A DNA stretch of 64,000 nt from Opitutus sp. (GTDB lineage: Bacteria; Verrucomicrobiota; Verrucomicrobiia; Opitutales; Opitutaceae), in NCBI GenBank assembly GCA_024998815.1, contig JACEUQ010000003.1, positions 385,900 to 449,899 of the forward strand, given 5' to 3'. Below, piece after piece: positions 17,623 through 39,084 of the stretch. The notes under the pieces were generated by a model that saw nothing but the letters and a program-made list of their open reading frames with translations, did no database searches and was not told the origin of the DNA. Each line of letters starts with the position of its first letter. Position 1 is the stretch's first letter. Both the position numbers and the translations under genes were made by a program.

Positions 17623-17645
17623 GCGGCGCCGCCTGCCTCGAGCCG

Positions 17646-17729: not shown

Positions 17730-17775
17730 GCCGGGGATTGATTCGACACAACCGCCTCCTCTTCCCACCACCACC

Positions 17776-19833: not shown

Positions 19834-19868
19834 CCTTCCCCGTTCGCCCCCTTTTTCCAATCAGCTCC

Positions 19869-20842: not shown

Positions 20843-22207
20843 ATGAAATCCGATTCCGAAATCCTCTCCATCCAAGCCGACCTCAAAGCCAAAGGCGTAA
20901 AATACGTCGTCGGCGCCTACGTGGACATCCACGGCGTGCCCAAGGGCAAGTTCGTGCCCATCGACCACTTTTTGCACTTCGCCCACGGCTCCGAACTCTA
21001 CACCGGCTACGCCCTCGACGGCCTCGGCCAGTCGCCCAACGACGACGAAATCGCCTCCCTGCCCGACCTCGACCGCGGCTGCGTTCTCCCCTGGAACAAG
21101 GAGGTCGCCTGGTTCCCCGCCGACAACACCTTCAAAGGCCAGCCCTACGAGATTAACACCCGTGTTGCCCTCAAAAAGGTCCTCGCTGACGCCGCCAGCC
21201 TCGGCTTCGGCATGAACCTCGGCATCGAGTGCGAAGTCTACGTCGTGAAACTCGGCCCCGACGGCAAAAGCCTCCTGATGCCCAACCCCGACGACCGCCT
21301 CAACAAAGCCTGTTACGACGTCAAAGGCTTCATGGACCGCTACCCGTGGCTCGACAAGGTTTCCACCGCGATCAACGACCTCGGCTGGGACCTGTACTCG
21401 CTCGACCACGAAGACGCCAACAGCCAGTTCGAGTTCGATTTCAACTACTCGGACGCGCTCACGATGTGCGACCGCTACGTGTTCTTCCGCATGATGGCGC
21501 GCCAGTTCGCCGCCGAGGAAGGGCTGCTGGCGACCTTTATGCCCAAACCCTTCGCCGACAAAACCGGCAACGGTGCGCACTTCAACATGTCGCTGTCCGA
21601 CCTCGCCACGGGCAAAAACGCCTTCAAGTGCGATCCAAAGGACGACCCGCGCGGCCTCGGTCTCACGCCTGTCGCCTACCACTTCATCGCCGGCATCCTC
21701 CGCCACGGCCCGGCGATCTGCGCCGCGATGGCACCGACGGTGAACAGCTACAAGCGCCTGGTTCGCCGCGGCCTGATGAGCTACTTTTCGTGGGCGCCGG
21801 TTTTTAATAGTTTCGGCACCAACAACCGCACCAATTCGGTGCGCGTGCCGATGGGCGGCGGCCGCTGCGAAAGCCGCAACGCCGACTCCGCCTGCAACCC
21901 CTACCTTGCCGCCACCCTCGCGCTCGCCGCCGGCCTGGAAGGCATACGCGAAAAACTCGATCCCGGCCTGCCGCAAGAGGACAACCTCTACGAACTCAGC
22001 CCGGAAGAGTTCGCCAAACGTGGTATCCAAGAACTCCCGCGCACCCTGGACGAAGCGGTCAAGGCCTTCGCCGCCGACCCGTTTGTGACCAAGGTCCTAG
22101 GCCAAGGCCTGCGCGACGAGTTCATCGCCTACAAATCCGAAGAATGGCGCCAGTATCACCAGCAGGTCAGCGCCTGGGAAATCGAGCGCTACGCCCGCAT
22201 GTTCTGA
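20843..22207 (+). CDS. glutamine synthetase family ligase (GlnT / type III glutamate-ammonia ligase-like)
   Basis: 454 aa. The beta-grasp N-domain ([20 protein letters not shown]) is followed by the catalytic barrel: [53 protein letters not shown], a PTVNSYKRL segment, and the [10 protein letters not shown] and [15 protein letters not shown] segments with the Arg and Glu ligands of the family. It would condense glutamate with ammonia or a small amine. Here it is best placed to assimilate nitrogen released by the neighbouring guanidine/biuret-type enzymes. It could instead make gamma-glutamyl amides, so its amine specificity is open. Confidence 0.88.
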
Positions 22208-22972: not shown

Positions 22973-23773
22973 ATGCCGCTCCTCGTCCCGCCCGCCGCCA
23001 CCGGCACCACTTTCACCACCGCCCGCCCCACCGGCCCCGTGCCGCAGCCCGGCGCCATTCCTGCCGACCGCCTGCTCACTGAGGAAACCCTCCCCGGCGG
23101 CACCGCCGTCTCATTCACGCTCCGCCGCCACCACACGCTGCGCCTGACCGCCCTCGAAGCCGGCGCCAATGTTTCCTTCCTCTGCTTCAACCGCCACGAG
23201 CTGCTCGACCGCTACAACATGGCCGACACGCTCAAGGGCCAGCATACCGCCCGCCTCACCACCGGCTTCATCCTCGTCTCCGACATGGGCCGGGCGATGG
23301 CGTCGATCACCGGCGACACACTTGGTTGGCACGACCCGCTCGGCGGCCACGACACCGCCGCCCACGTTGAGCAAAAATGGGGCGCCAAAACCTACCAGAC
23401 CGCCCGCAACGCCTGGCACCGCAACTCCCGCGACCACTTCCTGATCGAGCTGGGCAAACACGGCCTCAACGCCCGCGACCTCGTCCCCAACGTTAACTTC
23501 TTCAGCAAGCTCTCCACCGACGACGCGGGCCGCCTTTCCTTCGTCCCCGACCACGCCCAGGCCGGCGACTTCATCGACCTGCGCGCCGAGATGGACCTGC
23601 TCATCGTACTCACGACCTGTCACCACCCGCTGGACACGTCGTCCGCCTACGGCCCCAAGCCGGTAAAACTCCAGCGCTACCGCAGTGATCCGCCCCCGGC
23701 CGACGATTACTGCCGCACCTACCGCCCCGAAAACGAGCGCGCCTTCCACAACGCTGAACTCGCCGCCTTTTAA
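22973..23773 (+). CDS. DUF1989 protein, urea-carboxylase-associated protein 2 type (carboxyguanidine deiminase subunit candidate)
   Basis: 266 aa. Characteristic DUF1989 text: [60 protein letters not shown] and [15 protein letters not shown], with [17 protein letters not shown] at the end. Proteins long called urea amidolyase-associated proteins have been shown in guanidine-degrading bacteria to act as a two-subunit carboxyguanidine deiminase. This converts the product of guanidine carboxylase to allophanate and ammonia. The partner is encoded 68 bp downstream. Assignment to type 2 is by similarity of the MADTLK and SDMGR segments. Confidence 0.88.
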
Positions 23774-23841: not shown

Positions 23842-24501
23842 ATGTCCGTCCTCATCTACACCGAATCCCCCCACGCACCCGCCGCCGCGATTTACCGCCG
23901 CACGATCCCCGCCGGCGATTTCTGGATGCACGAAATCAAGGCCGGACAAACCCTCCGCATCCTCGATTTGGAAGGCAACCAAGCCGCCGACACCCTGTTT
24001 TACAACGCGACCGACTTCCGCGAACGCTACAGCGCCCAGGACACCATCCGCGAAAACGGCGGCATCTACCTGACGACCGGCACCCGCCTGTATTCCAACG
24101 AACTCAACGTGCTCGTCGAGATCACCGCCGACACCTGCGGTCGCCACGACACGCTCGGCGGCGCATGTGCCTGCGAAAGCAACACCGTCCGCTACGGCCA
24201 CGGCACCCGCCACATGCACTCCTGCCGCCAGAGCTTTTTGCTCGGCCTGATGACCTGGCCCGGCGCGACGAGCTTCGAGCTCAACAAACGCGACATCCCG
24301 GCGAACATTAACTTTTTCATGAACGTCCCGGTCACGCCCACCGGCGGCCTGCAATTCGAAGACGGCGTTTCCGCGCCCGGTAAATACGTGGAAATGGTCG
24401 CCCGCATGGACGTCGTTTGCCTGATCAGCAACTGCCCCCAGCTCAACAACCCCTGCAACGCCTACAACCCCACCCCCGTCGAAGTCCTCATCTGGCCCTA
24501 A
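23842..24501 (+). CDS. DUF1989 protein, urea-carboxylase-associated protein 1 type (carboxyguanidine deiminase subunit candidate)
   Basis: 219 aa. Motifs: [94 protein letters not shown], and [20 protein letters not shown]. The conserved Cys/His residues in the ACACES and HMHSC segments suggest a metal centre. With the preceding DUF1989 gene it would form the heteromeric carboxyguanidine deiminase. Co-location with the biotin carboxylase, whose start follows after 180 bp, supports this. Confidence 0.9.
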
Positions 24502-24681: not shown

Positions 24682-27600
24682 GTGTTCACCAAAGTCCTCA
24701 TCGCCAACCGCGGCGCCATCGCCTGTCGCGTCATCCGCACCCTTAAAAAAATGGGCATCGCCAGCGTCGCCGTCTACTCCGACGCCGACCGCCATTCGCT
24801 CCACGTCGCCCAAGCCGACGAAGCGGTCCACCTCGGCGCCTCTCCCGCCGCCCAGAGCTACCTCGACGCCGAGAAAATCCTCGCCGCCGCCAAGGCCACC
24901 GGTGCCCAGGCCATCCACCCCGGCTACGGCTTCCTCTCTGAAAACGCCGACTTCGTCGAAGCCTGCGAAGCCGCCGGCATCGCCTTCATCGGCCCCCGCG
25001 CCGCGCAGATGCGCCAGCTCGGCCCCAAGCACTCCGCCCGCGCCCTCGCTCGCGCCCACGGCGTGCCGCTGCTCCCCGGCACCGACCTCCTTCCCGACCT
25101 CGCCACCGCCCAGCGCGAGGCCGCCCGTATCGGTTATCCGGTGATGCTCAAAAGCACCGGCGGCGGCGGCGGCATCGGCATGTCCCTCATCCGCAAACCC
25201 GCCGAACTCGCCACCGCCTTCGACTCCGTCGTCCGCCTCGCCCAAAACAACTTTAAAGACGGCGGCGTCTTCCTCGAAAAGTTCGTCGAGCACGCACGCC
25301 ACATCGAAGTCCAGATTTTGGGCGATTCCCACGGTCACGTGGTCGCCCTCGGCGAACGCGACTGCTCGGTCCAGCGCCGCAACCAAAAGGTGGTCGAGGA
25401 AACCCCCGCGCCCGGCCTCACCGCCGCCCAGCGCAGCGAATTGCTCGCCTGCGCCGCTCGCCTCGGCACCGCCGCCGGTTACACCAACGCCGGTACCGTC
25501 GAGTTCGTTTACGACAACGCCACCGGCCAATTCTACTTCCTCGAAGTTAACACCCGCCTCCAGGTGGAACACGGCGTCACCGAGGAAGTCACCGGCGTTG
25601 ACCTGGTCGAATGGATGATCCGCGCCGCCGCCGGTGAGCTCGACCTGCGCACCTACACGCCGTCCGCCTGCGGCGCCTCCATCCAGGTGCGCCTTTACGC
25701 CGAGGACGCCGGGAAAAACTTCCAGCCCGCCGCCGGCACCCTCACCGACGTCTTTTTCCCCAAAACCGCGCGCATCGAAACCTGGGTTGAAACCGGCAGC
25801 GAAGTCTCGGCGTTTTACGACCCGCTGATCGCCAAAATCATCGTGCGCGGCAGCGACCGGGCCGACGCCCTCACTCGCCTTGACGCCGCCCTCGCCGACA
25901 CCCGCGTTTACGGCCTGGAAAACAACCTGCCGTACCTGCGCCAGATCATCGCCAGCGAAGGTTTTCGCGCCGGTGCCGTCACCACCAAGTACCTCGCCAC
26001 GCTGCCTTACACGCCCGCGACGGTCGAAGTCCTCGAAGGCGGCACCCAGACCACCGTGCAGGACTACCCGGGCCGCATCGGTTACTGGGACGTCGGCGTG
26101 CCGCCCTCCGGCCCGATGGACAATTTGTCCTTCCGCCTGGCCAACCGCCTGGTTGGCAACCCCGACACCGCCGCTGGCCTGGAGTTAACCGTCAACGGCC
26201 CGTCACTGCGCTTCAACACCGCCGCGGTCGTCGCGCTCACCGGCGCGAATATGCCCGCCACTCTCGACGGCAAACCGGTCGCCGCCCAGCGCGCCTTCCG
26301 TATCCGCGCCGGCCAGACGCTGCGCATCGGTTCGATTGCCGGCCCCGGCCTGCGCACCTACCTCGCGATCCGCCACGGCCTCGATGTGCCCGACTACCTC
26401 GGCAGCAAATCCACCTTCACCCTCGGCCTGTTCGGCGGACACGCCGGCCGCGCCCTGCGCACCGGCGACGTCTTGCGCGTCCACCGCTCCACGCCCGCCG
26501 GCGTGACCGACTCTGCCCCGCTCCTACGCGCCCCCGCCACCATCCAGCCCCCGCTCACCCGCGAATGGCAGATCGGCGTGCTTTACGGCCCGCACGGTGC
26601 GCCTGATTTCTTCACCGAGGCCGACATCAAAGTCCTGCTCACGACCGCCTACGAAGTTCACTACAACTCCGCCCGTACCGGCGTGCGCCTGATCGGCCCG
26701 AAGCCCGAGTGGGCGCGACGCGACGGCGGCGAGGCCGGGCTGCACCCCTCGAACATCCACGACAACGCCTACGCGATTGGCGCGGTGGATTTCACCGGCG
26801 ACATGCCGATCATCCTCGGCCCCGACGGCCCCAGCTGCGGAGGTTTCGTGTGCCCGTTCACGATCGTGCAAGCGGAACTTTGGAAAATGGGCCAGCTCAA
26901 GCCCGGCGACCAAGTCCGCTTCGTCGCCCTCACCGCCGAGCACGCCCGCATCCTCGCCCTCGCCCAGGACTCCGAAGTCGAGTCCCTCAAGCGCGCGCCC
27001 AAGCCAAAGTGTCACCCATTAGGTGACACTCCCTCCGAGCCCGCAGTTATTCATCACCTCCCAGCGCGGCCGACTGCGCCCGCCGTGGTTTATCGCCGGG
27101 CCGGTGATTCGTACATCCTGGTTGAATACGGCCCGCTCCAGCTCGACATCGCCCTGCGCATGCGCGCCCACGCGCTGCTCACCTTGCTCAAACGGCACCC
27201 TATCCCCGGCTTGATCGACCTCACCCCCGGCATCCGCTCGTTGCAGATCCACTTCGATTACCGCATCCTGCCCATGGAGCGGCTCATGGAAATTCTCCTG
27301 CGCGCCGAGGGCGAACTGCCGCCAGTCGACGACATGGAAGTGCCCTCGCGCATCGTCCACCTACCGCTGTCCTGGGAGGACGAATCCACCCTACTCGCCA
27401 TCCGCAAGTACATGCAAATCGTGCGCAAGGACGCCCCCTGGTGCCCGAGCAACCTGGAGTTTATCCGCCGCATCAACGACCTGCCGAACCTGCAGGAGGT
27501 TTACCGGATCTGTTTCGACGCGAGCTACCTGGTGCTCGCCCTCGGCGACGTTTACCTCGGCGCGCCCGTGGCCACGCCGATCGATCCGCGCCACCGCCTC

Positions 27601-28293
27601 GTCACCACCAAATACAACCCCGCCCGCACCTGGACTCCGGAGAACGCGGTCGGCATCGGCGGCGCCTACCTGTGCATCTACGGCATGGAAGGCCCCGGCG
27701 GTTACCAGTTCATTGGCCGCACCTGCCAGATGTGGAACCGCTACAAGCAGACCGCCGACTTCGTGGACGGCAAACCGTGGCTCTTGCGCTTCTTTGACCA
27801 GATCCGTTTTTACCCGGTGTCCAACGCCGAGCTGACGAAATTCCGCGAGGATTTCCCGCAGGGCAAAGTGAAGCTGAAGATCGAGGAAACCACCTTCCGC
27901 CTGCGCGATTACCAACAGTTTCTCGCCGACAACGCCGGAGAAATCACCGCGTTCAAAACCAAGCAGCAGGCCGCCTTCGAAGCCGAGCGGCAGCGCTGGG
28001 TGGAGAGCGGCCAGCTCAACTTCTCCGCGAGCGACGAGTCGGCCGCCGTGGTGGACGAGCAGGCGATCCCCGCTGGTTGCGTGGCCACCCCATCGCACAT
28101 CCCGGGCAACATCTGGAAAATCCTCGTCGAAGCCGGTGCTACGGTGAGCGAAGGCCAGCCGCTGGTGATTCTCGAATCGATGAAGATGGAGGTAACCGTG
28201 GTGGCCTCCCGAACCGGCAAGGTGCGCGAAGTGCGATGCGTGGAAGGCCGCCCGGTCGCCGCCGGCGAAACCCTGATCGTCATCGAAGGCTGA
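24682..28293 (+). CDS. biotin-dependent urea/guanidine carboxylase
   Basis: 1203 aa, GTG start ([20 protein letters not shown]). Biotin carboxylase residues 1-440: [44 protein letters not shown]. KipA-like carboxyltransferase half about 443-772: [59 protein letters not shown]. KipI-like half about 793-1010: [34 protein letters not shown]. The biotinyl domain ends the protein with ESMKMEV, biotinyl Lys1168. Asp703 in GAVDFTGD is, to my knowledge, the guanidine-carboxylase form of a site that is Asn in true urea carboxylases. With the DUF1989 pair this favours guanidine. The interdomain linker (~775-793) contains an in-frame copy of the cluster palindrome. Confidence 0.9.
27008..27030. repeat. 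palindrome AGTGTCACC-N5-GGTGACACT inside the carboxylase gene
   Basis: Translated in frame as CHPLGDT in the linker between the two carboxyltransferase halves. Sequence after it (CTCCCAGCGCGGCCGACTGC) resembles that between the two copies at 16371-16451, suggesting a larger inserted unit. Confidence 0.85.
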
Positions 28294-28329: not shown

Positions 28330-28434
28330 CCTTGAGCTCACGCTCAAGGCCACCAGGAGGGGCTACATGCCGAAGGACCAAGCGCCGGATAATCCGACTC
28401 CTCGTGGCCTTGAGCGTGAGCTCAAGGTGTTTTC
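28330..28434. repeat. CCTTGAGCTCACGCTCAAGG inverted repeat
   Basis: Left arm 28330-28353, right arm about 28405-28432. It lies in the 478-bp gene-free interval between the carboxylase and the Tsx-like gene. Confidence 0.88.
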
Positions 28435-28570: not shown

Positions 28571-28771
28571 CAGGCCCGCAGCAAGGCTAGTGCGGCGTTG
28601 CATTTTTCGGCACAAGAAAGCTGTAACCGGCTTTCAGTGACCGCAACCCGTTAACGGTAAGTATTTTAAATGAAGCCTGAACGGCTGGCATACGGGTGGC
28701 TAAAGCAGGGTGCAGAACGTCAGGCCGATCGCCTGACCCAATCCACCCTCGCTTCCACACCACGTCAGCCC

Positions 28772-29614
28772 ATGAAACGTATCCTCAGTCCCGTTGCCAG
28801 CGCCGCCCTCGTCGCCGCGCTTTCTTTTACCGCCGCCGCCAGCGCTTTCGAATGGAGTGACAACTTCATCGGCTATCGCACCGGCACCACGTACCGCGAG
28901 CCCGTGAACTCGAAGGACATCTCCAAAGACATTCTCCAGTTCCAGCACGTCGACGGCTATAAGTACGGCAGCAACTTCTTGAACATCGATTACCTGAAGT
29001 CCGACGGTAACGACAAAGAAGACGGCGGGCCCGATGGTGCCGAGGAAGTCTATGTGGTTTACCGGCATACGCTCAGCCTGAGCAAGGTGACCGGGAAGTC
29101 CTTTAAGAGTGGAATCATTCGCGATTACGGCTTCGTCACCGGCTTCGACGTTAACTACAAAAACGACACCTTCAGCCCCGCTGTGCGCGAGCTCTGGGTC
29201 GGTCCCTCCGTTGATTTCGAAGTCCCCGGCTTCTTCTCTTTGGGGCTGATGTTGGACAAGGAGTACAATAACAACTCCATCGTTAATAAACACGTCGAGT
29301 TCGACGCCACCTGGGCACTTTGCGCCGCGTGGGGCATCAACTTTAAACTCGGTCTGCCCGTGGTTTTTAAGGGCTTCTCCAGCTACATCGGGCCGAAGGG
29401 CAAGGACGGCTTCGGCGTCAACACCGAGGCGGAGTGGCTGACGGAGGCCGCCCTCATGTTCGATGTCGGCTCCACCTTCGGCAAAAAGGGCACCTTCTAC
29501 GTCGGGCCCGGCTACCAGTATTGGAAAAACAAATTCGGCAATGATTCCTCCGCCGACAGCACCGGTGGCTGCACCGCCTCGGTCTTCCAGCTCCAGGCCG
29601 AAGTCCACTTCTGA
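28772..29614 (+). CDS. Tsx/OmpK-like outer-membrane channel protein
   Basis: 280 aa from MKRILSPVASAALVAALSFT, a clear signal peptide cleaved near ASA-FEW. The mature protein starts FEWSDNFIGYRTGTTYREP and continues with beta-strand-rich motifs of the nucleoside-specific channel family: LQFQHVDGYKYGSNFLNIDY, VYVVYRHTLSLSKVTG, DYGFVTGFDVNYKND, FEVPGFFSLGLMLDKE. It ends in the aromatic C-terminus QAEVHF typical of barrel proteins. It leads the BMP-type importer genes, suggesting outer-membrane entry for the same solute. The 34 residues upstream in the longer frame are not needed. Confidence 0.87.
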   Translation: MKRILSPVASAALVAALSFTAAASAFEWSDNFIGYRTGTTYREPVNSKDISKDILQFQHVDGYKYGSNFLNIDYLKSDGNDKEDGGPDGAEEVYVVYRHTLSLSKVTGKSFKSGIIRDYGFVTGFDVNYKNDTFSPAVRELWVGPSVDFEVPGFFSLGLMLDKEYNNNSIVNKHVEFDATWALCAAWGINFKLGLPVVFKGFSSYIGPKGKDGFGVNTEAEWLTEAALMFDVGSTFGKKGTFYVGPGYQYWKNKFGNDSSADSTGGCTASVFQLQAEVHF

Positions 29615-29676
29615 TCCCGCGCCCTTTGGCCGGTTAACTGCTCAGCGATCGTCCGTCCCACCGTCTTTTTAATTCC

Positions 29677-30780
29677 ATGAAACACACCCGTTCACTGCTC
29701 CTGTTCGCAACCGTCCTTTCGATGGCGGTTGCCGCCTTCGCCGCGGAAATGTCCGTCGGCTTCATCTACGTCGGCCCCAAGGACGACTACGGCTACAACC
29801 AATCCCAGGCCGAGGGTTGCGCCGGTATCCAGAAACTCCCGTGGCTGAAGGCTACCGAGGAGGCCAGCGTGCCCGAGACCACCGCCGCCCAGGAGACCAT
29901 GCGCAACATGATCGAGCTCGAGGGCGCCACCCTGATTTTCCCGACCTCGTTCGGTTACTTCGACCCGCACATCCTGAAGGTCGCCAAACAATACCCCAAG
30001 GTGCAGTTCCTCCACTGCGGCGGTCTCTATGACGCCGCCAAACATCCGGCCAACGTCGGCAGCTACTTTGGTTACATCGACGAGGCGGTTTATGTCGCCG
30101 GTATTGTGGCCGGCCATACGACCAAGTCAGGCAAACTCGGCTTCATCGCCGCCAAGCCCATCCCGCAGGTGCTGCGCAACATCAACGCCTACCTGCTCGG
30201 CGCGCGTTCGGTTAACCCTACTGCCACCGTGCAGGTCGTCTTCACCGGCGACTGGTCGGTGCCGGTCAAGGAGGCCGAGTCCGCCACCAGCTTGATTAAC
30301 CAGGGTGTCGATGTGCTGACCTGCCACGTGGACAGCCCCAAGGTCATTCTGGAAACCGCTGAGCGCCGCGGGGTCTATGTCACCGGTTACCATGTGAACG
30401 GTGCCAAGCTTGCGCCCAAGGGCTATCTGACCGGTGCCGAGTGGAATTGGACGAAGGTCTACACCGACTACGCCGAGGCGGTCAAAGCGGGTAAAACCCT
30501 CGCCGCCGGCACCATTCCGCACCTCGTGCGGGGCGGCCTGAAAGAGGGCTTCGTGAGCGTCTCCGCCTACGGCCCGGCCGTGAGCGCCGCCGCCAAGAAG
30601 GACGCCGACGCCGCCAAGGCCGGCCTCATCGCCGGCTCGCTGGTGATCTTCAAAGGTCCACTCAAGGATAACACCGGCAAGGAGATCCTTCCCGCTGGCA
30701 AATCCTACCTCCAGCAGGACCTGGCGCTCGAATCCATGGGCTGGCTGGTCGACGGGGTGATCGGCGGCACCAAGGGCTGA
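29677..30780 (+). CDS. BMP-family ABC transporter substrate-binding protein
   Basis: 367 aa. Signal peptide MKHTRSLLLFATVLSMAVAA-FAAE, mature MSVGFIYVGPKDDYGYNQSQ. The family usually binds purine nucleosides or similar heterocycles: AKQYPKVQFLHCGG, GSYFGYIDEAVYVAGIVAGH, GKLGFIAAKPIPQVLRNINA, FTGDWSVPVKEAESATSLIN, GVDVLTCHVDSP. The mature start has no lipobox Cys, so it is soluble periplasmic rather than a lipoprotein. The importer's permeases and ATPase follow after a 435-bp repeat-rich gap. With the isochorismatase-like hydrolases nearby, biuret-like ureides are plausible ligands. Confidence 0.9.
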   Translation: MKHTRSLLLFATVLSMAVAAFAAEMSVGFIYVGPKDDYGYNQSQAEGCAGIQKLPWLKATEEASVPETTAAQETMRNMIELEGATLIFPTSFGYFDPHILKVAKQYPKVQFLHCGGLYDAAKHPANVGSYFGYIDEAVYVAGIVAGHTTKSGKLGFIAAKPIPQVLRNINAYLLGARSVNPTATVQVVFTGDWSVPVKEAESATSLINQGVDVLTCHVDSPKVILETAERRGVYVTGYHVNGAKLAPKGYLTGAEWNWTKVYTDYAEAVKAGKTLAAGTIPHLVRGGLKEGFVSVSAYGPAVSAAAKKDADAAKAGLIAGSLVIFKGPLKDNTGKEILPAGKSYLQQDLALESMGWLVDGVIGGTKG

Positions 30781-31215
30781 GCGCTCGCCAGTCCGCGCTC
30801 AAGCTGAGCTTAAAACACTCCAGTCGAGGTGGCGTTAATTCTGTTGGAGAAAAACACCCTGCGCTCACGCGCAAGGCCACGAGGAGAGTCTCCCCTAGTG
30901 TGATCAACCGAGTGTGGCCCTGAGCGTGAGCTCAGGGTGGCAGTAAACCTTAGTCTAAACGCAAATTCGTAAACACCGCCTCGTGTAACCGTGTTCGTGT
31001 TACGCAAACACGTCCGGGTTAATTATCCTCATTCGTTTCCCCGTAGCGCAGGCTTCCAGCCTGCTTTGCCTCACCGAGGCAGACTGGAAGTCTGCGCTAC
31101 TTTTTCGGACGGTTTTCATCGGGTCCTGAGTCCCCACGCACGCTCGGCCCGGTAACTGCTCATTCGCCCCGTCTTCCCTGTCCGCACCCGTTAATCGCCG
31201 CTCTCTCCCGCCTAG
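30781..31215. repeat. repeat-filled gap inside the importer operon
   Basis: Contains a CACCCTGCGCTCACGCGCAA inverted repeat (30846-30942) and a GTAGCGCAGGCTTCCAG / CTGGAAGTCTGCGCTAC pair (31042-31103). GTGTAAC and GTGTTAC occur near 30984-31005. No gene seen. Confidence 0.8.
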
Positions 31216-32289
31216 ATGAGTAACCCACCGCTCCCGCCCACCTCTCGCCGCTGGCGGCCCGCCCTTGAGGCCGTGGCTTTGCCGGTCGGAGCCGTGCTCG
31301 TGGCGCTTCTCCTTTTCGGCGTCTTCTGCGCAGTCCAGGGTGCCAATCCACTCAGCGTATTCAAATCGATCCAACGCGCCTCCTTTGGCAGTTGGTACTC
31401 GTTTCAAAATACCCTCATCCGGGCCGCCCCGCTCATTCTCACCGCGTTGTGCACCGCGTTGCCAGCCCGGCTCGGTTTGATCGTGATCGGCAATGAGGGC
31501 GCGCTCGTCGTGGGTGGATTGGCAGCAACCGCTGCCGGACTAGCCGCCGCCTCGGCTCCACCCTTTGTTGCGCTAACGATTATGGTGCTCGCCGGTATGG
31601 CGGGCGGCGGCGCCTGGATCGGCCTGGTCGGCCTGCTTCACTACCAGCGCGGGGTGAACGAAACCATCAGCGGGCTTCTCCTCAATTACGTGGCGATCGC
31701 CGTCTTGAGCCACTTGGTCAACGGCCCGATGCGCGACCCTGCGAGCCTGAATAAGCCGTCGAGTTACTCCTTCGCCGAAACCCATCAACTGGGCGGAATC
31801 GCCGGCAGTAACGTCCACTACGGGCTGGTGTTCGGCGTGGTGTTCGCGGTCTTCGCCTGGGTGCTGATGGAGCACACCAGCTTCGGTTTCAAAGCACGCA
31901 TGATCGGCGGCAACATTCGTGCCGCGCGCATGGCCGGCTTGCCGGTGGCGCGCCTCGGAATCACCACCTGCCTACTGGGTGGCGCGGCGGCCGGTCTCGC
32001 CGGCATGGTCGAGGTGGCCGCCATCCACGGCCGCGCCAACGAGTCGCTTGCCGCCGGTTATGGCTACGCGGGCATCCTGGTCGCTTTTGTCGCCCGCTTT
32101 CGCGGCTTGCCCATCATTCTGGTGGCCGTGCTGCTGGGCGGAATCCTCGCCAGCGGCGGCATTTTGCAGCGCCAGTTTAAACTGCCCGACGCCACCATCC
32201 TCGTGTTCCAGGGCATCGTCTTCCTGTGTATCCTGTTTAGCGATTCGCTCTACGGACGCTTCGCCTGCTTTAAGGAGAAAACCGCATGA
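31216..32289 (+). CDS. ABC transporter permease, BMP/RbsC-like (first subunit)
   Basis: 357 aa, about nine hydrophobic segments: VALPVGAVLVALLLFGVFCA, LIRAAPLILTALCTALPARL, FVALTIMVLAGMAGGGAWIG, and HTSFGFKARMIGGNIRAARM before a conserved loop. GLVGLLHYQRGVNETISGLL LNY and the GYGYAGILVAFVARF segments are typical of nucleoside-type permeases. It overlaps the second permease by 4 bp, so the two are coupled. Confidence 0.92.
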   Translation: MSNPPLPPTSRRWRPALEAVALPVGAVLVALLLFGVFCAVQGANPLSVFKSIQRASFGSWYSFQNTLIRAAPLILTALCTALPARLGLIVIGNEGALVVGGLAATAAGLAAASAPPFVALTIMVLAGMAGGGAWIGLVGLLHYQRGVNETISGLLLNYVAIAVLSHLVNGPMRDPASLNKPSSYSFAETHQLGGIAGSNVHYGLVFGVVFAVFAWVLMEHTSFGFKARMIGGNIRAARMAGLPVARLGITTCLLGGAAAGLAGMVEVAAIHGRANESLAAGYGYAGILVAFVARFRGLPIILVAVLLGGILASGGILQRQFKLPDATILVFQGIVFLCILFSDSLYGRFACFKEKTA

Positions 32290-33215
32290 ACGCCTCTGAA
32301 TCCATTGGCTGGTGGGGCGTCGTGCTGGGGATCTTCGCGGGGGCTTTGCGCGGCGGAACCCCGTTTTTGTTGGTCAGCCTCGGCGAATGCCTCACCGAAA
32401 AAAGCGGCAAGATTAACCTCGGGCTTGAAGGCACGCTGCTGATGGGTGCGATGAGCGCCTACGCGGTTTCTTACCATACCGGCAACCCGTGGCTGGGCGT
32501 CATGGCTGCCTTCGGGACCGGCGCTGGCCTGGGGGCGATCCACGCGCTTTTGGTTTCGCGGCCCAAGGTCAACGATGTCGCCGCCGGTATCGCCATGCTC
32601 ATCTTCGGCAGCGGCTTGGCCTTCTACCTAGGCAAACCCTACATTCGGCCCAGTGCGCCCCAGTTGCCCGCCCTCTCGCTCGGGGGTTGGAGCGAGCTGC
32701 CGCAGCTTGAGGCGGCGCTCAAACTCAGCCCGTTGTTTGTCCTCGGGGCCGGGCTGGCCTTACTCCTCAGCTGGGCGTTCAACTGCACCCGTTGGGGTCT
32801 GCGGGTGCGCGCGGTTGGCGACGCCCCGGTCGCCGCCCTCGCCCTGGGCATGTCGGTTAAAAAAGTTCGCTTTGTCGCCATCGTGTTGGGCAGCGCGATC
32901 GCGGGACTGGGCGGCGCGCACCTGTCGCTGTTTTATCCAGGTGCGTGGACCGAGGCCATTTCCAGCGGGCAGGGCCTGATGGCGGTGGCGCTCGTTATTT
33001 TCGCCCGCTGGCGGCCGGTACACTGCCTGTACGCGTCGATGATTTTCGGTGGCACCCAGGCCATCGCTCCGGCCCTGCAAGCCATCGGCATCACCTCGGG
33101 TTACTACCTGTGGAATGCCGCGCCGTATGTCCTGACCTTGGTTGTCATGGTCATCACCTGTTCGCCCAAACGCACCCTGGCCGGTTCACCCGGCGCACTC
33201 GGCACCGCGTCTTAA
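32286..33215 (+). CDS. ABC transporter permease, BMP/RbsC-like (second subunit)
   Basis: 309 aa. [20 protein letters not shown], then [20 protein letters not shown] (typical NLG.EG motif), [40 protein letters not shown] and [20 protein letters not shown]. Around eight membrane helices. It pairs with the upstream permease to form the channel. A biuret-hydrolase-like gene starts 13 bp downstream. Confidence 0.92.
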
Positions 33216-33228
33216 TTTTTTAAAAATC

Positions 33229-33912
33229 ATGAGCACCCGCTACGTTAAATCCGAACCCTATGCCTGGCCCTACGACGGCGATCTGCGCCCCGAAAACACG
33301 GCCATTTTGGTCATCGATATGCAGACCGATTTTTGCGGTCCGGGCGGTTACGTGGATAAGATGGGTTACGACCTAGCGCTGACGCGCGCGCCGATCGAAC
33401 CGATCAAACGGGTGCTCGCGGCGTTTCGCGCCCAGGGCTACCACGTTATGCACACCCGCGAAGGCCACCGGCCGGACCTCTCCGACCTGCCCGCCAACAA
33501 ACGTTGGCGCAGCCGGCAGATCGGCGCCGGTATTGGCGACGTGGGGCCGTGCGGGCGCATTCTCGTTCGCGGCGAACCCGGCTGGGAACTCATCGAGGAG
33601 TTGCGCCCCGAGCCGGGCGAGGCGGTGATCGACAAACCGGGCAAGGGCTCGTTTTACGCCACCGACCTCGACATGCTTCTGCGCGGCAAGGGGGTGCGCA
33701 ACCTCGTGCTCGCCGGCATCACCACCGACGTGTGCGTGCACACCACGATGCGCGACGCCAACGACCGCGGCTACGAGTGCCTGATCTTGTCCGATTGCAC
33801 CGGGGCCACCGACCCCGGCAACCACCTGGCGGCGCTCCACATGGTGACGATGCAGGGCGGGGTGTTTGGCGCCGTCGCCGATTCCGCCGCGCTCATCGCC
33901 GCGATCAGTTGA
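33229..33912 (+). CDS. isochorismatase-like cysteine hydrolase, biuret hydrolase type
   Basis: 227 aa from [20 protein letters not shown]. The catalytic set of this family is present: Asp30 ([10 protein letters not shown]), Lys136 ([10 protein letters not shown]) and Cys169 ([19 protein letters not shown]), plus Gln209 (MVTMQGG). From memory, the rhizobial biuret hydrolase has the same residues at the same spacing (D36, K142, C175, Q215) and near-identical stretches such as [26 protein letters not shown] and LPANKRWRS. Biuret to allophanate plus ammonia is therefore a strong guess; triuret hydrolases and ureidoacrylate amidohydrolases are close relatives. It lies inside the BMP importer gene run, 42 bp before the ATPase gene. 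Confidence 0.85.
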
Positions 33913-33953
33913 GTCCAGCCCGCCCTTTTTTGTTTAAAAAAAACCGCCCACTT

Positions 33954-35498
33954 ATGTCGGTCACGATTCCCCCGCACGTTCGCCCCAAGCACCCACCGGA
34001 CTTGGAGCTTGTTGGAGTGACCAAGCGCTTCGGTGCCTTTACCGCCAACGAGGCCGTTTCGCTCAAGGTCAAAGCGGGTACGTTTCACGCGCTCATCGGC
34101 GAAAACGGCGCGGGCAAAAGCACGCTGGTTAAATGCATCATGGGCTACCACCTCGCCGACGAGGGCGACATCCTCGTCGGCGGGCACTCCCGCGAGATCC
34201 GCAACCCGCAGGACGCCTACGAGTACGGGATCGGCATGGTTTACCAGCACTTCACCCTGGTGCCCGCGATGACCGTGGCCGAAAACCTGGTGCTCAGCCG
34301 CCCCGATTTGCCCGCGATCATCAACTGGCGAACTGAGTTTGACCGCTTGTACGCGTTCATGCGCACCGCGCCTTTTCAGATCGATCTGGATACGCCGGCA
34401 TCCCAGCTGGCCGCCGGCGAAAAACAGAAGGTGGAGATCCTCAAGCAGCTCTACCTCGACAGTAAGTTTCTCATCCTCGACGAGCCCACCTCGGTGCTCA
34501 CGCCGGCCGAGGCTGACGAAGTCCTCGGACTGCTGCGCGGCAAAGTTGTGGCGGGCGAACTGAGCGTGTTGCTCATCACTCACAAATTCAGCCAGGTTAT
34601 AAACTTCTGTGACGACGTGACCGTGCTGCGGCGCGGTCGCCAGACGGGCTCGGGGCGGGTCAAAGACCTCACGGCCGACCAGATGGCCGCCATGATGATG
34701 GGCGGCCAGCGCGAGCCCAAGATCGTGCCCAAGGCCGCAACGGCCCCCGGTGCGGTCTCGCTCGCCCTGCGCGGGCTGGGCGCCAACCGCGACAACGGCG
34801 TTCCGGCCCTCGTCGGCGTGGATCTTGAGGTCCGCGCCGGCGAGGTGGTCGGCATTGCCGGGATCTCTGGCAACGGCCAGCGCGAGCTCGTCGAGGTGAT
34901 CGCCGGCCAGCGCGAGGCCACCGGCGGCGAACTCCGCGTGCAGGGCGAAGTCTACAAATCCACCCGCGCCGAGGCGTGCCGGCACCAGGTTTTTCTGCTG
35001 CCCGAAGAGCCGCTGCGCAACGCCTGCGTGCCCCACATGGGCGTGGCCGAAAACCTCGCCCTGCGCACCTTCGACCAGCCCCCGCTGGCGCGCGCCGGAT
35101 TTTTTGTGAGCCAGGCGCGCATCCGCGCCAAAGGGCGCGAGCTGATCGCCCGCTACGGGATCAAGACGCGTTCGCCCGACACACCCATCGGCGACCTGTC
35201 CGGCGGCAACGTGCAACGCGCCGTGCTCGCCCGCGAACTCGGCAGTGGCACCGCCCGCGTGCTGGTGGCCGCCAACCCCTGTTTCGGCCTGGATTTCGCA
35301 GCTGTCGAAACCATCCACGGCCAGATCACCGAGGCGCGCAACCGGGGCGTCGGCGTGCTGCTCGTCAGCGAGGATTTGGATGAGCTGCTCGCCCTGGCCG
35401 ACCGCATTGTCGTGATCGCCCACGGCCGGTTTGTCTATGAAACCACCCCGGCCACCGCGGACATCACCACCATCGGCCACCACATGGCCGGACATTAA
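33954..35498 (+). CDS. BMP-type ABC importer double ATPase (RbsA-like)
   Basis: 514 aa with tandem ABC domains. Domain 1: Walker A GENGAGKSTLVKCIMGY, QHFTLVPAMTVAENLVLS, signature region LAAGEKQKVEILKQL and Walker B FLILDEPTSVLTP. Domain 2: degenerate Walker A GISGNGQRELVEVIAG, signature LSGGNVQRAVLAREL and VLVAANPCFGLDFAAVE. The P-loop lysine is lost in domain 2, which is normal for this subfamily. The start MSVTIPPHVRPKHPPDLELV at 33954 is chosen over an upstream frame that overlaps the hydrolase gene. Confidence 0.92.
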   Translation: MSVTIPPHVRPKHPPDLELVGVTKRFGAFTANEAVSLKVKAGTFHALIGENGAGKSTLVKCIMGYHLADEGDILVGGHSREIRNPQDAYEYGIGMVYQHFTLVPAMTVAENLVLSRPDLPAIINWRTEFDRLYAFMRTAPFQIDLDTPASQLAAGEKQKVEILKQLYLDSKFLILDEPTSVLTPAEADEVLGLLRGKVVAGELSVLLITHKFSQVINFCDDVTVLRRGRQTGSGRVKDLTADQMAAMMMGGQREPKIVPKAATAPGAVSLALRGLGANRDNGVPALVGVDLEVRAGEVVGIAGISGNGQRELVEVIAGQREATGGELRVQGEVYKSTRAEACRHQVFLLPEEPLRNACVPHMGVAENLALRTFDQPPLARAGFFVSQARIRAKGRELIARYGIKTRSPDTPIGDLSGGNVQRAVLARELGSGTARVLVAANPCFGLDFAAVETIHGQITEARNRGVGVLLVSEDLDELLALADRIVVIAHGRFVYETTPATADITTIGHHMAGH

Positions 35499-35534
35499 CC
35501 CGCACCGTTTTGCCTGCACGTATCCACCTCGACC

Positions 35535-36197
35535 ATGACCGTCATTGCCGCGCTGCCCTATCCGTTTGAAGTGCCCGAGCTCCGCCGACTCGCTCTGGTG
35601 GTGATCGACATGCAGCGCGATTTTGTCGAACCCGGCGGCTTCGGCGAAGCGCTCGGCAACGACGTTTCCCTGCTGCGCTCGGCGATCGGGCCCATCGCCG
35701 AACTGCTGGCCGCGTTTCGTGCGCGCGGGCTGCCGATTGTCCACACGATCGAAGGCCACCGGCCGGGCCTCTACGACTGCCCGCCCTCCAAGCTCCAGCG
35801 CGGCCGCGGTTCCGTGAAGATCGGCGATCCCGGCCCGATGGGGCGGATCCTCATTCTCGGTGAGCCAGGCAACGGCATTATTGCCGAGCTAGCCCCGCGC
35901 GACGGCGAGTTGGTCCTGACCAAGCCGGGTAAGGGTGCCTTTTGCCGCACGGATCTCGAAGCCTGGCTCCTCCGCCAAGGCATCACCCACCTGCTCATCA
36001 CCGGGGTTACCACCGAGGTTTGCGTGCAGACAACCATGCGCGAGGCCAACGACCGCGGCTTTGAGTGCCTGTTGGTCGAGGACGCCACCGAGAGTTATTT
36101 CCCTGAATTCAAACAGGCCACGCTCGCCATGGTGCGGGCGCAGGGCGGAATCGTCGGCTGGACCGCCTCCAGCGGCACGGTTCTTGCCGCCCTTTAA
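35535..36197 (+). CDS. second isochorismatase-like cysteine hydrolase
   Basis: 220 aa. The triad is kept: Asp25 (VVIDMQRDF), Lys130 ([10 protein letters not shown]), Cys163 ([19 protein letters not shown]), with Gln203 (VRAQGG). It is a clear paralogue of the hydrolase at 33229 but diverged in the substrate region ([17 protein letters not shown]) and C-terminus ([27 protein letters not shown]). Neighbouring pairs of such enzymes handle successive ureides in some triuret/biuret degraders, so a triuret- or other ureide-hydrolase role is plausible but unproven. It lies 36 bp after the ATPase gene and 19 bp before the cupin gene. Confidence 0.82.
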
Positions 36198-36216
36198 CCC
36201 CATTTAGTTCTCACCG

Positions 36217-36639
36217 ATGTCCGTCCCCCTGACGCCCCCGCCCACCGGCACTCCCGCACGCTACCAACCGATTGTCCTGCAGGATTTGTTCACCATCGCC
36301 GACTGGCAGGAGCGCATCGACTGGCAGCCCTTCAAGCCGGGGGTGGAAATCCACCGCCTCTACGGCGACGGCATCACCGGGCCGGCCGCCGCGCTGCTGC
36401 GTTACCGGGAGGCGGCCTCGGTCGCGCTGCATCGGCACACCGGTTACGAGCACATCCTGGTGTTGGCGGGCTCACAACGGGATCAAAACCTCACGGCCTG
36501 CTGCGGCACGTTGGTGGTTAACCCGCCCGGTACTGTGCACCGAGTGGCCAGTGACGCCGGCTGCATTGTGTTGGCGATCTACGCCAGTCCGGTCGAATTC
36601 CTCGGTGAAACCGGAGTTTCTGCGACGGCGGAGGCTTAA
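36217..36639 (+). CDS. cupin-domain protein (ChrR-like)
   Basis: 140 aa. Single cupin: GVEIHRLYGDGITGPAAALL, REAASVALHRHTGYEHILVL with the HxH...E metal ligands, and GTLVVNPPGTVHRVASDAGC. It is the last gene of the importer/hydrolase unit. Small cupins at the ends of ureide operons may be sensors or isomerases; no specific function can be assigned. Confidence 0.82.
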   Translation: MSVPLTPPPTGTPARYQPIVLQDLFTIADWQERIDWQPFKPGVEIHRLYGDGITGPAAALLRYREAASVALHRHTGYEHILVLAGSQRDQNLTACCGTLVVNPPGTVHRVASDAGCIVLAIYASPVEFLGETGVSATAEA

Positions 36640-36707: not shown

Positions 36708-36910
36708 CTTGAGCTCACGCTCAAGGCCACGGGGAGTGTGTTCGCGAGGAGAGTGCCAAACACCTTGAGCTCACGCTCAAGGCCTGGAGTTTGGCCCCTG
36801 ACTAGTCGAACGAAGATCAGCCGAATCCTTGAGCTCACGCTCAAGGCCACATGATTCGCGAACACACCCCTTGTGGCCTTGAGCGTGAGCTCAAGGTCTG
36901 GAGTTTGGCC
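36708..36910. repeat. stacked CCTTGAGCTCACGCTCAAGG repeats with GGAGTTTGGCC junctions
   Basis: Three left arms and one right arm of the family. The junction GGAGTTTGGCC occurs at about 36785 and 36899; the interval GGCCCCTGACTAGTCGAACG onward is repeated in inverse at 47460-47505 and 60915-60950. No gene seen in 36640-37091. Confidence 0.82.
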
Positions 36911-37093: not shown

Positions 37094-39084
37094 GTGCGAC
37101 CATGAAACTAACAACCATAACAGTGAAAGTCTGTTCGACCGAATTTAACGATTCGCGGTCGAAGGGCCCGGTCACGGATGCAGGCCGCGAGGCCTCGCCG
37201 GAAAGCACGACCGTGTGCCCGAACCAGTCAGCCGCAACGAAGGTGAACCCCATTCAATGAGCTCCGTTACCGAAACAACCGACGAGTCCAGCCGCTACCT
37301 GAACGGTGAAGACTGCAAGGATCGGAAAAGGCAGTCTCGCAAAGACGTAGGACCTAAATCGTTGATTTCCGATCAACACGTCGGCGGAGTCAGCGGGGGC
37401 GGCGGGGTGGGAAAGGTCGTTAGGTTAAGTGGTGAGACCTGCGGCGGTGGGGCGTCTTGCGATGCCTCAACCACCGGCACAAGCGCGGCAAAACCTCGTA
37501 AGGCCGGACGGGCCGTGGCAGGAGTCGGAGACCTCCATAGTAGTGATGATCTAGCGGACATTAAAACCGCCGGGGAGCGAAGGGAGGGCACTTGTTCCCA
37601 CGCATCACAGAGCGGCAAAGGACCCGACGATGGCTGGGGTGATGAACTCTGGATAAAAACGTCACCGAAGGTTCGGAAGCTGCAACGTGTGCTATATCGG
37701 AAAGCAAAAGCGGAGCCGCATTGGCGGTTCTATAGTTTGTATGGAGAGCTGTATCGGCAGGACATTCTGTCGGATGCGCTCGATCAGGTGATCGCCAATG
37801 ACGGCGTGCCGGGAGTGGACGGGTTCGAGGTGGAAACGCTCGTAAAGAACGAAGCCTATCGGGCGGCATGGCTGCTTGCGCTGGCGGAGGAAATGCGAAC
37901 GAAAACCTACCGACCCAGTCCGGTCCTGCGCGTCTATATATGGAAGGATCAGGCCAGGACCAAACGTCGTGCGCTGGGCATCCCTACGGTGAAAGACCGG
38001 GTGGTGCAAAGCGCGGCGGTGATCGTGTTGCAGCCAATCCTAGAGGCGGACTTCCATGACCATTCCTACGCCTACCGGCCGAAACGTCGGACCCATCAGG
38101 CGATGGATAAGGTCAAGGAAGCCATGCTGAGCGGAAAGGTGGAGGTGGTGGACGCGGATTTATCGAGCTACTTCGATATGATCCCGCACCGCGAACTCCT
38201 GCAATTGGTGGCCAAACGGGTGAGCGATGGGAGCGTGTTGCGTTTAATAAAAACGTGGCTGCGCGCACCCATCGTGGAAGAGGACCGGGACACGGGGTGC
38301 CGCAAGGTGAGCGCGAACCGGTGTGGCACGCCACAAGGCGGAGTTATATCGCCTCTGCTGGCGAACCTCTACCTCAACGACCTCGATCATGCGGTGAATG
38401 AGAAGTGCGAACAAAAGCCGACGATGGTGCGTTACGCCGACGACCTCCTGATCCTGTGCAAACCGGGTCAAGGGGCGGGGCTGCAAACGCGACTGAAACG
38501 GTGGCTGGAGGCACGTAAGTTAAAGCTCAACGAAGAGAAAACCCGACTGGTGGATACACGAAAGGAAGGCTTTGAGTTCCTCGGTTTTTCCGTCGCATGG
38601 CGGCAAGGCATGAAGAGCAAACGAAGGTATCCGCACGTGGACCCCAGTGCGAAAAGTCTGGCCAAGTTACGCGACAAAGTGCGGATGGAGCTAGATGTGC
38701 GAACGCGCAACCAACCGGCGGTGGCGGTGGTCCGCAAGGTCAACCAAATCACTCGCGGTTGGGCGACGGCGTTTCATTACGGCAACAGCACGCACGTGTT
38801 TAGTAACCAGCAGGCTTTTGTGCGCAACCGGTTGCGGCGGTGGCTGTGGCGAAAGTATAGCCGCACCCACGGACTCTTCGAGTTCTTCACCGACGACCGT
38901 TTGCATGGTCAATACAAACTATGGCACTGGCCGCTTACGGCGGCTTGGAAGCAATGAACTCCGCTGAAACCAAACCGAAAGAATGGGGACTCGGTAAGCC
39001 GTGTGCGGGAAAACCGCTTGCACGGTTTGACGAGGGGGAGGGTCGCGCTGACGGGTTACCGACGCGCGGCTCTCTCTACTCTAC
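37092..39084 (+). mobile_element. group II intron, copy 1
   Basis: 1993 bp. The 5' end GTGTGCGACC fits the GUGYG rule. An internal reverse transcriptase is encoded. The 3' part holds domain V (AAGCCGTGTGCGGGAAAACC then GCTTGCACGGTTTGACGAGG, 39000-39045), then a domain VI-like hairpin, and ends CTCTCTACTCTAC. It inserts directly 3' of a long hairpin-forming palindrome, the habit of group IIC introns. The 3' flank TTAACTCGTGCC is the reverse complement of the target seen intact near 60680. Confidence 0.88.
37257..38957 (+). CDS. group II intron reverse transcriptase/maturase, copy 1
   Basis: Up to 566 aa from ATG 37257, but the first ~115 residues overlap intron RNA domains and are low complexity (GGVSGGGGVGK), so the true protein may start further in. 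RT blocks: DALDQVIANDGVPGVDGFE, RRALGIPTVKDRVVQSAA, HSYAYRPKRRTHQAM, VDADLSSYFDMIPHRELL, GTPQGGVISPLLANLYLNDL, catalytic MVRYADDLLI, EKTRLVDTRKEGFEFLGFSV. The maturase domain ends with NQITRGWATAFHYGNSTHVF and RLRRWLWRKYSRTHG. No HNH endonuclease is seen. YADD is intact, so the protein is likely active. Confidence 0.9.
   Translation: MSSVTETTDESSRYLNGEDCKDRKRQSRKDVGPKSLISDQHVGGVSGGGGVGKVVRLSGETCGGGASCDASTTGTSAAKPRKAGRAVAGVGDLHSSDDLADIKTAGERREGTCSHASQSGKGPDDGWGDELWIKTSPKVRKLQRVLYRKAKAEPHWRFYSLYGELYRQDILSDALDQVIANDGVPGVDGFEVETLVKNEAYRAAWLLALAEEMRTKTYRPSPVLRVYIWKDQARTKRRALGIPTVKDRVVQSAAVIVLQPILEADFHDHSYAYRPKRRTHQAMDKVKEAMLSGKVEVVDADLSSYFDMIPHRELLQLVAKRVSDGSVLRLIKTWLRAPIVEEDRDTGCRKVSANRCGTPQGGVISPLLANLYLNDLDHAVNEKCEQKPTMVRYADDLLILCKPGQGAGLQTRLKRWLEARKLKLNEEKTRLVDTRKEGFEFLGFSVAWRQGMKSKRRYPHVDPSAKSLAKLRDKVRMELDVRTRNQPAVAVVRKVNQITRGWATAFHYGNSTHVFSNQQAFVRNRLRRWLWRKYSRTHGLFEFFTDDRLHGQYKLWHWPLTAAWKQ

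Follow-up and report, generated by a model that had tools for sequence, protein, structure and literature searches.

Triuret and biuret, both rich in nitrogen, arise when uric acid and fertiliser break down. A bacterial triuret pathway formed by TrtA, BiuH and AtzF has been described from Herbaspirillum sp. BH-1 and Rhizobium leguminosarum (PMC7948467), and contigs with biuH-trtA(-trtB)-atzF together with bmpA-nupABC have been reported from ammonia-oxidising bacteria and comammox (PMC12625717). A gene run of this kind was analysed in Opitutus sp. (Verrucomicrobiota). The window, i.e. the whole stretch of 64,000 nucleotides, covers positions 385900-449899 of contig C3 in a three-contig genome of 4.24 Mb. 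It contains an operon (Table 1) made up of a Tsx-like channel gene, the genes of a BMP-family ATP-binding cassette (ABC) importer, two isochorismatase-like hydrolase genes and a small cupin gene. Judged from sequence, this operon very probably imports triuret and biuret and strips their nitrogen stepwise.

In the proposed route, small flat ureides would pass the outer membrane through the Tsx-like channel, and the BMP binding protein, the two permeases and the ATPase would carry them into the cell. TrtA would cleave triuret to carboxybiuret and ammonia; carboxybiuret would lose CO2, spontaneously or aided, to give biuret; and BiuH would cleave biuret to allophanate and ammonia. An allophanate hydrolase encoded outside the operon would complete the breakdown, and a guanidine carboxylase and a carboxyguanidine deiminase encoded upstream may add to this allophanate. 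For the cupin, a carboxylated ureide of the triuret pathway is the most likely substrate.

The two hydrolases and the order of the genes

Hydrolase 1 scored 420.3 bits against the NCBIfam BiuH equivalog, above the cut-off of 370; hydrolase 2 scored 257 bits and stayed under it. The best solved relative of hydrolase 1 is BiuH 6AZO (395 bits; 72.5% identity over 222 columns), and its identity to TrtA is 49.8%. The best match of hydrolase 2 is 6XIX (272 bits; 62.1% identity over 206 columns), the crystallised triuret hydrolase TrtA (PMC7948467); with 49.8% identity to 6AZO, the enzyme is nearer to TrtA than to BiuH. Fifteen positions were then mapped, comprising the catalytic, substrate-binding and discriminating residues of PMC7948467 and the cis-peptide residues. 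Hydrolase 1 carries the BiuH letter (6AZO) at all 15, including the catalytic Asp-Lys-Cys and the second-shell residues; hydrolase 2 carries the TrtA letter (6XIX) at all 15, including the triad. TrtA and BiuH are unlike at seven of these positions, where each window hydrolase follows its own type. Hydrolase 2 has the TrtA-type F35, N41, A134, E160, Y187, I205 and Q202; the BiuH letters opposite the first six are Y, Y, S, D, T and V. Hydrolase 1 is thus a predicted biuret hydrolase, and hydrolase 2 a predicted triuret hydrolase. The original prediction had called the first biuret-hydrolase-like and had proposed a triuret hydrolase with an intact triad for the second, and both assignments were borne out by these matches.

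GuuH and RutB belong to the same superfamily as the two hydrolases (PMC12625717, PMC9800807), and a guanylurea hydrolase would suit the neighbouring guanidine pathway. A different small ureide or amide (guanylurea, ureidoacrylate, formylurea) is nevertheless very improbable as the substrate of one or both enzymes in place of triuret or biuret. The RutB model (cut-off 378) gave only 130 bits for hydrolase 1 and 81 bits for hydrolase 2, against the BiuH scores above; and each enzyme agreed with its own type throughout the residue comparison, which covered BiuH and TrtA, not GuuH.

The nearest named relative of the window TrtA (74% identical) comes from a Verrucomicrobiales metagenome-assembled genome (locus L006). 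A quickly built tree of 95 TrtA rows places these two in a starred group of 33, of which 30 have cyanobacterial titles, apart from the TrtAs of nine further genomes belonging to the window's phylum. This placement suggests transfer.

A hydrolase 50% identical to hydrolase 1 was also seen on the E. coli plasmid pEND_Eco 18055 (117196-127819; L143). It adjoins fdrA, DUF1116, DUF2877 and carbamate kinase genes, the oxalurate set as named in PMC12625717. The Escherichia plasmid records matching hydrolase 1 at E <= 1e-40 number 78, of which L143 is the one looked at.

The gene positions of the original prediction, all on the + strand, were confirmed by the open reading frame (ORF) list, start calls and Pfam. 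The hydrolase gene at 33229 does lie between permease 2 and the ATPase gene, and the 13-bp gap before it is correct; the gap after it is 41 bp, not 42 bp as stated. The two permease genes overlap by 4 bp; 36 bp separate the ATPase from hydrolase 2, 19 bp hydrolase 2 from the cupin and 435 bp the binding protein from permease 1. The gene set held as far as it had been given; the cupin, the upstream guanidine-carboxylase cluster and the distant allophanate hydrolase had been missed.

The conservation of this order was examined in the best 80 of 567 loci from a scan for TrtA relatives, a sample that leans towards close relatives. The biuH gene is present in 54 of the 80, after three opposite-strand matches of 34-35% identity (L042, L048, L053) were dropped. 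In 43 of the 54, permease 2, biuH and the ATPase follow one another on one strand with none of the other searched genes between them, and both gaps are below 300 bp in 24. The full order of BMP binding protein, permease 1, permease 2, biuH, ATPase and trtA, a cupin being allowed between the last two, was found in 39 of the 80 loci: 26 from Pseudomonadota, eight from Cyanobacteriota, three from Nitrospirota, one from Verrucomicrobiota and one unranked SAR324 record. The six-gene run also occurs on plasmids of Rhizobium leguminosarum, Ideonella and Agrobacterium, with a formamidase gene before biuH in R. leguminosarum. Because the importer-biuH-ATPase-trtA order recurs in 39 of the 80 loci, from at least four phyla, the reading as ureide uptake and hydrolysis is very likely right. 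Weighing against it, TrtA and BiuH accompany a different membrane protein, with no BMP importer, in three loci of the window's phylum (L109, L110, L112).

These three loci and L107, of the same phylum, share a layout of an outer-membrane-like protein, trtA, a long membrane-protein-like gene, biuH (not in L107) and the cupin. No BMP importer was found in the fetched stretches of these four, and the L110 copy of the long gene matched nothing in Pfam or NCBIfam. In L137, L161 and L162 biuH is immediately preceded by a formamidase gene; a gene read as a similar nitrilase-family amidase occurs in 11 of the 80 loci.

The binding protein, importer and Tsx-like channel

The Bmp-type binding protein, the two BPD_transp_2 permeases and the double ATPase place the transporter among the BMP/PnrA-type ABC importers. 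The best solved relatives of the binding protein are AtzT (6PI5, 206 bits) and BmpA (3S99, 180 bits), the ligand of the latter presumably being adenine. In AtzT, guanine lies between Tyr45 and Trp194 and is contacted by Ser97, Phe98, Glu165, Asn218 and Asn220 (PMC6834077). The pocket of the window protein reads Y-S-F-Q-N-W-H-D. It retains Tyr45, Ser97, Phe98, Asn169 and Trp194 of AtzT, so that the aromatic sandwich is kept, with Glu165, Asn218 and Asn220 replaced by Gln (Gln164), His and Asp, respectively; the purine-contacting Glu of the AtzT/BmpA subgroup is therefore missing.

An alignment was made of 56 binding proteins from the fetched loci, the window protein and the two solved ones, open frames shorter than 250 amino acids being dropped. 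Gln occupies AtzT position 165 in 46 of the 56; whereas AtzT and BmpA have Glu. All but one of these 46 also have Ser97, Phe98, Asn169, Trp194, His218 and Asp220, the remaining one (L079) being otherwise unlike. Among the ten proteins without Gln165 are those of L084 (Phe), the second copies of L013 (Ala) and L040 (Glu), and the distant L042, L048 and L053 (Ala). The other four come from trtA loci with this importer type (Pro in L009 and L020, Ile in L056, Ser in L071) and count against a ureide-binding pocket, as does the presence of His218 and Asp220 in the purine-binding BmpA. Since these two residues are common to BmpA, only the change from Glu to Gln sets the ureide-linked group apart.

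The importer might instead move purine bases or nucleosides, the hydrolases having been added for ureides made inside the cell, e.g. from urate oxidation. The purine ligands of AtzT and BmpA, the retained sandwich with Ser97 and Phe98, the shared His and Asp and the membership of the upstream channel in a nucleoside-channel family would all suit this. It is improbable, however, given the Gln at the purine-contacting position in the window protein and most relatives; moreover, none of the genes identified at 16.6-36.6 kb is purine- or nucleoside-catabolic, and across phyla biuH lies within the importer gene run and trtA comes behind it. The original prediction that the binding protein has shifted from nucleosides to ureides was supported as to the ureides, the purine-holding Glu being replaced and the importer travelling with both enzymes; its starting point needs correction, as the nearest relatives hold nucleobases, not nucleosides. 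Taken together, the enzyme identities, the importer linkage across phyla and the Glu-to-Gln change support a predicted unit for ureide uptake and hydrolysis.

The Tsx-like channel was upheld in part. Its gene is in place, and the protein is 47% identical to one in the same place in L074. Two relatives at triuret loci pass the Pfam Channel_Tsx (PF03502) cut-off of 27.2 bits (L049 with 64 bits, L040 with 40.8 bits); L074 gave no match. Against the channel, the window protein itself reached 20 bits, below the cut-off, and such a gene is rare. Iterated searches covered 91 loci, the 80 and 11 others (89 trtA loci, since L114 and L115 lack trtA), and the Tsx-like gene occurs at three of these 91, before the importer in L049 and L074 and before trtA in L040. 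The search for a solved Tsx relative gave a chance-level match alone (RuBisCO-like, E 0.45).

The small cupin and the carboxybiuret step

Cupin_7 was the sole Pfam family found in the 140-amino-acid cupin. In all 25 aligned sequences of the family, the window's included, His72, His74, Glu78 and His108 are invariant; these are presumably the metal ligands of the cupin motif. The family occurs in 36 of the 91 loci and an AtzH-like gene in 17, and never do both occur together (0 of the 89 trtA loci). The aligned parts of cupin and trtA are less than 150 bp apart in 26 of the 36 cupin loci. Among 399 genomes, a single one (L139) has a TrtA this close to the Herbaspirillum BH-1 enzyme, with 93% identity; its trtA is directly followed by an AtzH-like gene. 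We take this gene for TrtB, the known carboxybiuret decarboxylase, which was reportedly named by Aukema in 2020. The slot after trtA is occupied by the cupin in R. leguminosarum and Agrobacterium, and no AtzH-like gene (PF11533) was found in a search of the window's genome.

Whole genomes were also compared. Among 387 genomes of the window's phylum, seven have a close cupin (at least 153 bits; next match 64 bits), all seven with a TrtA of at least 61% identity and none with AtzH; three others (G088, G271, G292) have such a TrtA together with AtzH and no close cupin. In Cyanobacteriota a close cupin was found in eight of 386 genomes (G391 being a profile source). Six of these eight cupins lie directly between the ATPase gene and trtA, one is at a contig end, and one stands beside the ATPase gene and biuH with no trtA in 15 kb. 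AtzH was found anywhere in the genome for four of 29 cupin-locus genomes (L013, L023, L061, L066; L010 left out) and 12 of 19 genomes whose locus has neither gene (L026 left out). A close cupin (>140 bits) was found in none of 14 AtzH-locus genomes (best 101 bits, L071) and in one of the 19 neither-locus genomes (L012); three of 16 further neither-locus genomes, searched for the cupin alone, were positive (L025, L029, L043). For genomes searched for both genes, the genome-wide tally (n = 72) is five with both, 32 with the cupin only, 28 with AtzH only and seven with neither.

The cupin and AtzH labels change four times on the TrtA tree, against 16.2 when shuffled, and two of the changes are forced by starred branches. 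The Fisher p of 1.5e-8 for the exclusion ignores relatedness. Once this is corrected for, only three independent pairs with branch support remain, and the exclusion does not reach significance (sign test, median p 0.5); shared descent accounts for much of the pattern.

The cupin stands with biuH in the window's-phylum relatives L108-L112; the biuH of L107 is on another contig. In three loci (L105, L106, L113), trtA and the long membrane-protein-like gene described above are accompanied by AtzH, to which an AtzG-like part is added in L106, and by an AtzE-like amidase, with no biuH nearby; AtzE was looked for in 12 loci. They probably represent the dicarboxyurea route. The cupin with biuH and AtzH with the AtzE-like amidase would fit two alternative routes from carboxybiuret to allophanate.

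The chemistry calls for a decarboxylase between TrtA and BiuH, and it is proposed that the cupin speeds carboxybiuret decarboxylation in place of TrtB, a possibility falling somewhat short of an even chance. The imperfect exclusion across whole genomes (both genes in five of 72) and the three independent pairs weigh against it, and so does a fold search with the cupin model (predicted local distance difference test, pLDDT, 89.6), in which generic cupins and no decarboxylase were among the 50 matches listed. There is nearly an even chance that the cupin instead senses a ligand or metal, or assists allophanate hydrolase, and that carboxybiuret decarboxylates unaided; its spontaneous half-life is given as about 20 min (PMC7948467). 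The closest sequence profiles of the cupin are ChrR anti-sigma cupins, and in L006 a cupin is fused to the C-terminal domain of allophanate hydrolase. Furthermore, seven of the 19 neither-locus genomes lack AtzH genome-wide and none of these seven has a close cupin, and the one cyanobacterial cupin noted above has biuH and no trtA in the 15 kb fetched. However, with Cupin_7 alone among Pfam families in 140 amino acids, no anti-sigma or DNA-binding part is recognised. The complete separation from AtzH at trtA loci, the position directly after trtA, where the near relative of the TrtA type strain has its AtzH-like gene, and the restriction of close cupins to trtA genomes in the window's phylum also speak against a sensor or helper and for the decarboxylase.

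A third candidate is a free-standing AH_C domain (C-terminal in allophanate hydrolase), the domain which decarboxylates N-carboxycarbamate in yeast-type allophanate hydrolase. AH_C-like frames below 300 amino acids were found in 17 of the best 80 TrtA loci, Pfam AH_C being confirmed in three of three tested; ten of the 17 lack both cupin and AtzH, and the three Nitrospirota loci in the set of 80 are all among these ten. These frames, and the cupin-AH_C fusion of L006, also count against the cupin as the decarboxylase. It is nonetheless unlikely that in many loci the missing decarboxylase is AH_C rather than the cupin, as no AH_C gene was identified in the window operon, the allophanate hydrolase of the genome is full length, and an AH_C frame and a cupin occur together in seven of the 17 loci. 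Because of this overlap the two are not simple alternatives. The AH_C frame is a candidate decarboxylase where trtB is missing. The wider proposal, in which the cupin would replace AtzH/TrtB as carboxybiuret decarboxylase in Verrucomicrobiota, Cyanobacteriota and many Alphaproteobacteria and a free-standing AH_C would do the same in Nitrospira, is tentative and on the doubtful side.

The small AH_C frames lie in L006, L010, L011, L012, L013, L015, L019, L022, L028, L031, L032, L033, L041, L047 and L084, those of the Nitrospirota loci L041 and L047 following trtA directly; two more matches are cut, by the locus edge in L056 and by the contig end in L038. A replacement of allophanate hydrolase by the cupin was rejected, since an AtzF-like gene (>150 bits) is present in nine of 30 cupin loci (L046, L065, L070, L072, L073, L074, L076, L077, L083) and a full-length one in the own genome. 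Apparent fusions of the cupin with allophanate hydrolase on plasmids CP049031 and AP027374 were also rejected; these are lone genes of about 115 codons, the labels being read as misannotations. The true cupin-AH_C open frame is that of L006.

Genomic surroundings and comparison with known systems

Table 1. Positions of the operon genes and of the upstream cluster in the window.
Feature	Position	Strand	Basis
NitT/TauT-type ABC importer (binding protein, permease, ATPase)	16639-19712	+	Binding protein against urea-carboxylase-associated model TIGR03427, 138 bits, below cut-off 333.9; position
Creatininase-family amidohydrolase	19863-20669	+	PF02633 217 bits; creatininase equivalog 121 bits, below cut-off 235
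Type III glutamate-ammonia ligase, ammonia assimilation	20843-22207	+	TIGR03105 611 bits, cut-off 469.6
UAAP1, putative half of carboxyguanidine deiminase (CgdAB)	22973-23773	+	TIGR03425 316 bits, cut-off 206
UAAP2, putative other half of carboxyguanidine deiminase	23842-24501	+	TIGR03424 331 bits, cut-off 285
Putative guanidine-type carboxylase (annotated urea carboxylase)	24682-28293	+	TIGR02712 1875.5 bits, cut-off 1303.85
Tsx-like outer-membrane channel	28772-29614	+	Internal ATG of ORF 28670-29614, then signal-peptide-like stretch
BMP-family periplasmic binding protein	29677-30780	+	Pfam Bmp 146 bits (cut-off 24.1)
ABC permease 1	31216-32289	+	BPD_transp_2 109 bits
ABC permease 2	32286-33215	+	BPD_transp_2 120 bits
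Hydrolase 1, predicted BiuH (biuret to allophanate + ammonia)	33229-33912	+	Isochorismatase 153 bits; NCBIfam BiuH equivalog
ABC ATPase, sugar/nucleoside importer type	33954-35498	+	ABC_tran 149 bits, two ATPase stretches
Hydrolase 2, predicted TrtA (triuret to carboxybiuret + ammonia)	35535-36197	+	Isochorismatase 138 bits; best PDB match 6XIX
Small single-domain cupin	36217-36639	+	Cupin_7 60 bits; conserved metal-ligand positions

The allophanate hydrolase is encoded on the same contig about 92 kb past the window end (G000:C3:541802-543493; 597 amino acids; 734.7 bits, cut-off 511), and a urease alpha gene is also present in the genome. In the upstream cluster, UAAP1 and UAAP2 are taken here to be CgdAB. 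The Asp703 of the carboxylase stands opposite Asn1330 of Kluyveromyces lactis urea amidolyase, presumably the residue meant by a published Asp/Asn rule. By this rule, guanidine carboxylases carry Asp and urea carboxylases Asn (PMC12186494), and the window carboxylase is of the predicted guanidine type. The NitT/TauT-type importer is probably the guanidine importer of this cluster. The guanidine and triuret/biuret routes both end in allophanate. An Rfam search of 10000-42000 gave nine matches at E <= 1, none of them a guanidine riboswitch. A mir-1304 match in the same region, below the gathering score and on an inverted repeat, was rejected as a microRNA.

Eleven copies of a palindrome, CTTGAGC-N4-GCTCAAGG, lie in the window (22 matches counting both strands; 0.00 expected); it resembles a repetitive extragenic palindromic (REP) element. 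Its sites are at 28331-28427, 36708-36896, 47393, 49934 and 60710-60908, with two before and four after the operon, and a similar sequence lies between the binding protein and permease 1. Three group II intron maturase genes, near-identical by eye, were seen over about 115 kb (window 37215-39084 and 45503-47245; L004 5599-7341), with a group II intron match at 38994-39084 behind the first; the intron was probably recently active.

The gene set is mostly known, as the pathway and its enzymes are in print (PMC7948467) and the importer pairing has been described in nitrifiers (PMC12625717). No paper joining triuret or carboxybiuret with a cupin was found in a literature search that covered few subscription papers and so gives weak evidence of absence; within the same coverage, a carboxybiuret decarboxylase was found in PMC12625717 alone. 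The words cupin, Tsx and Verrucomicrob are absent from the main text of PMC12625717.

With the TrtA-BiuH-AtzF pathway the window shares the same two hydrolases, by sequence and residues, the order of steps and an allophanate hydrolase in the genome; and L139 has the same run of BMP binding protein, two permeases, biuH, ATPase and trtA. The window differs from the known pathway in its distant AtzF, the cupin in the AtzH-like slot, the leading Tsx-like gene and the adjacent guanidine cluster. In the upstream cluster, the Asp-type carboxylase and both deiminase halves are shared with the guanidine carboxylase-CgdAB-AtzF pathway (PMC12186494); whereas the window has no guanidine riboswitch in the region searched, and its allophanate hydrolase is distant.

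In the nitrifier contigs the BMP importer likewise stands beside biuH and trtA, which were read there as a triuret/biuret pathway; whereas the importer was named a nucleoside transporter (PMC12625717). It is suggested that BMP importers so annotated beside biuH are ureide importers. The nearest solved binding protein, AtzT, belongs to the AtzSTUVW importer of Pseudomonas sp. ADP, whose genes adjoin the operon for cyanuric acid breakdown, another pathway leading to allophanate (PMC6834077); the two pockets differ at Glu165, Asn218 and Asn220 of AtzT. The scavenging of triuret and biuret, known from plant-associated bacteria and nitrifiers, would be a portable unit with its own importer in further phyla, among them Cyanobacteriota and probably Verrucomicrobiota.

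The small cupin may be an unrecognised enzyme for one step of this pathway. TrtB and the AtzH-like proteins (PF11533, DUF3225) occupy the same slot and, as read here, would serve the same step; whereas their fold belongs to the NTF2 superfamily (PMC6219798) and that of the window protein is a cupin. If both the cupin and AH_C are decarboxylases, one step would have been solved by three unrelated folds, beside an importer family re-tuned from purines to ureides.

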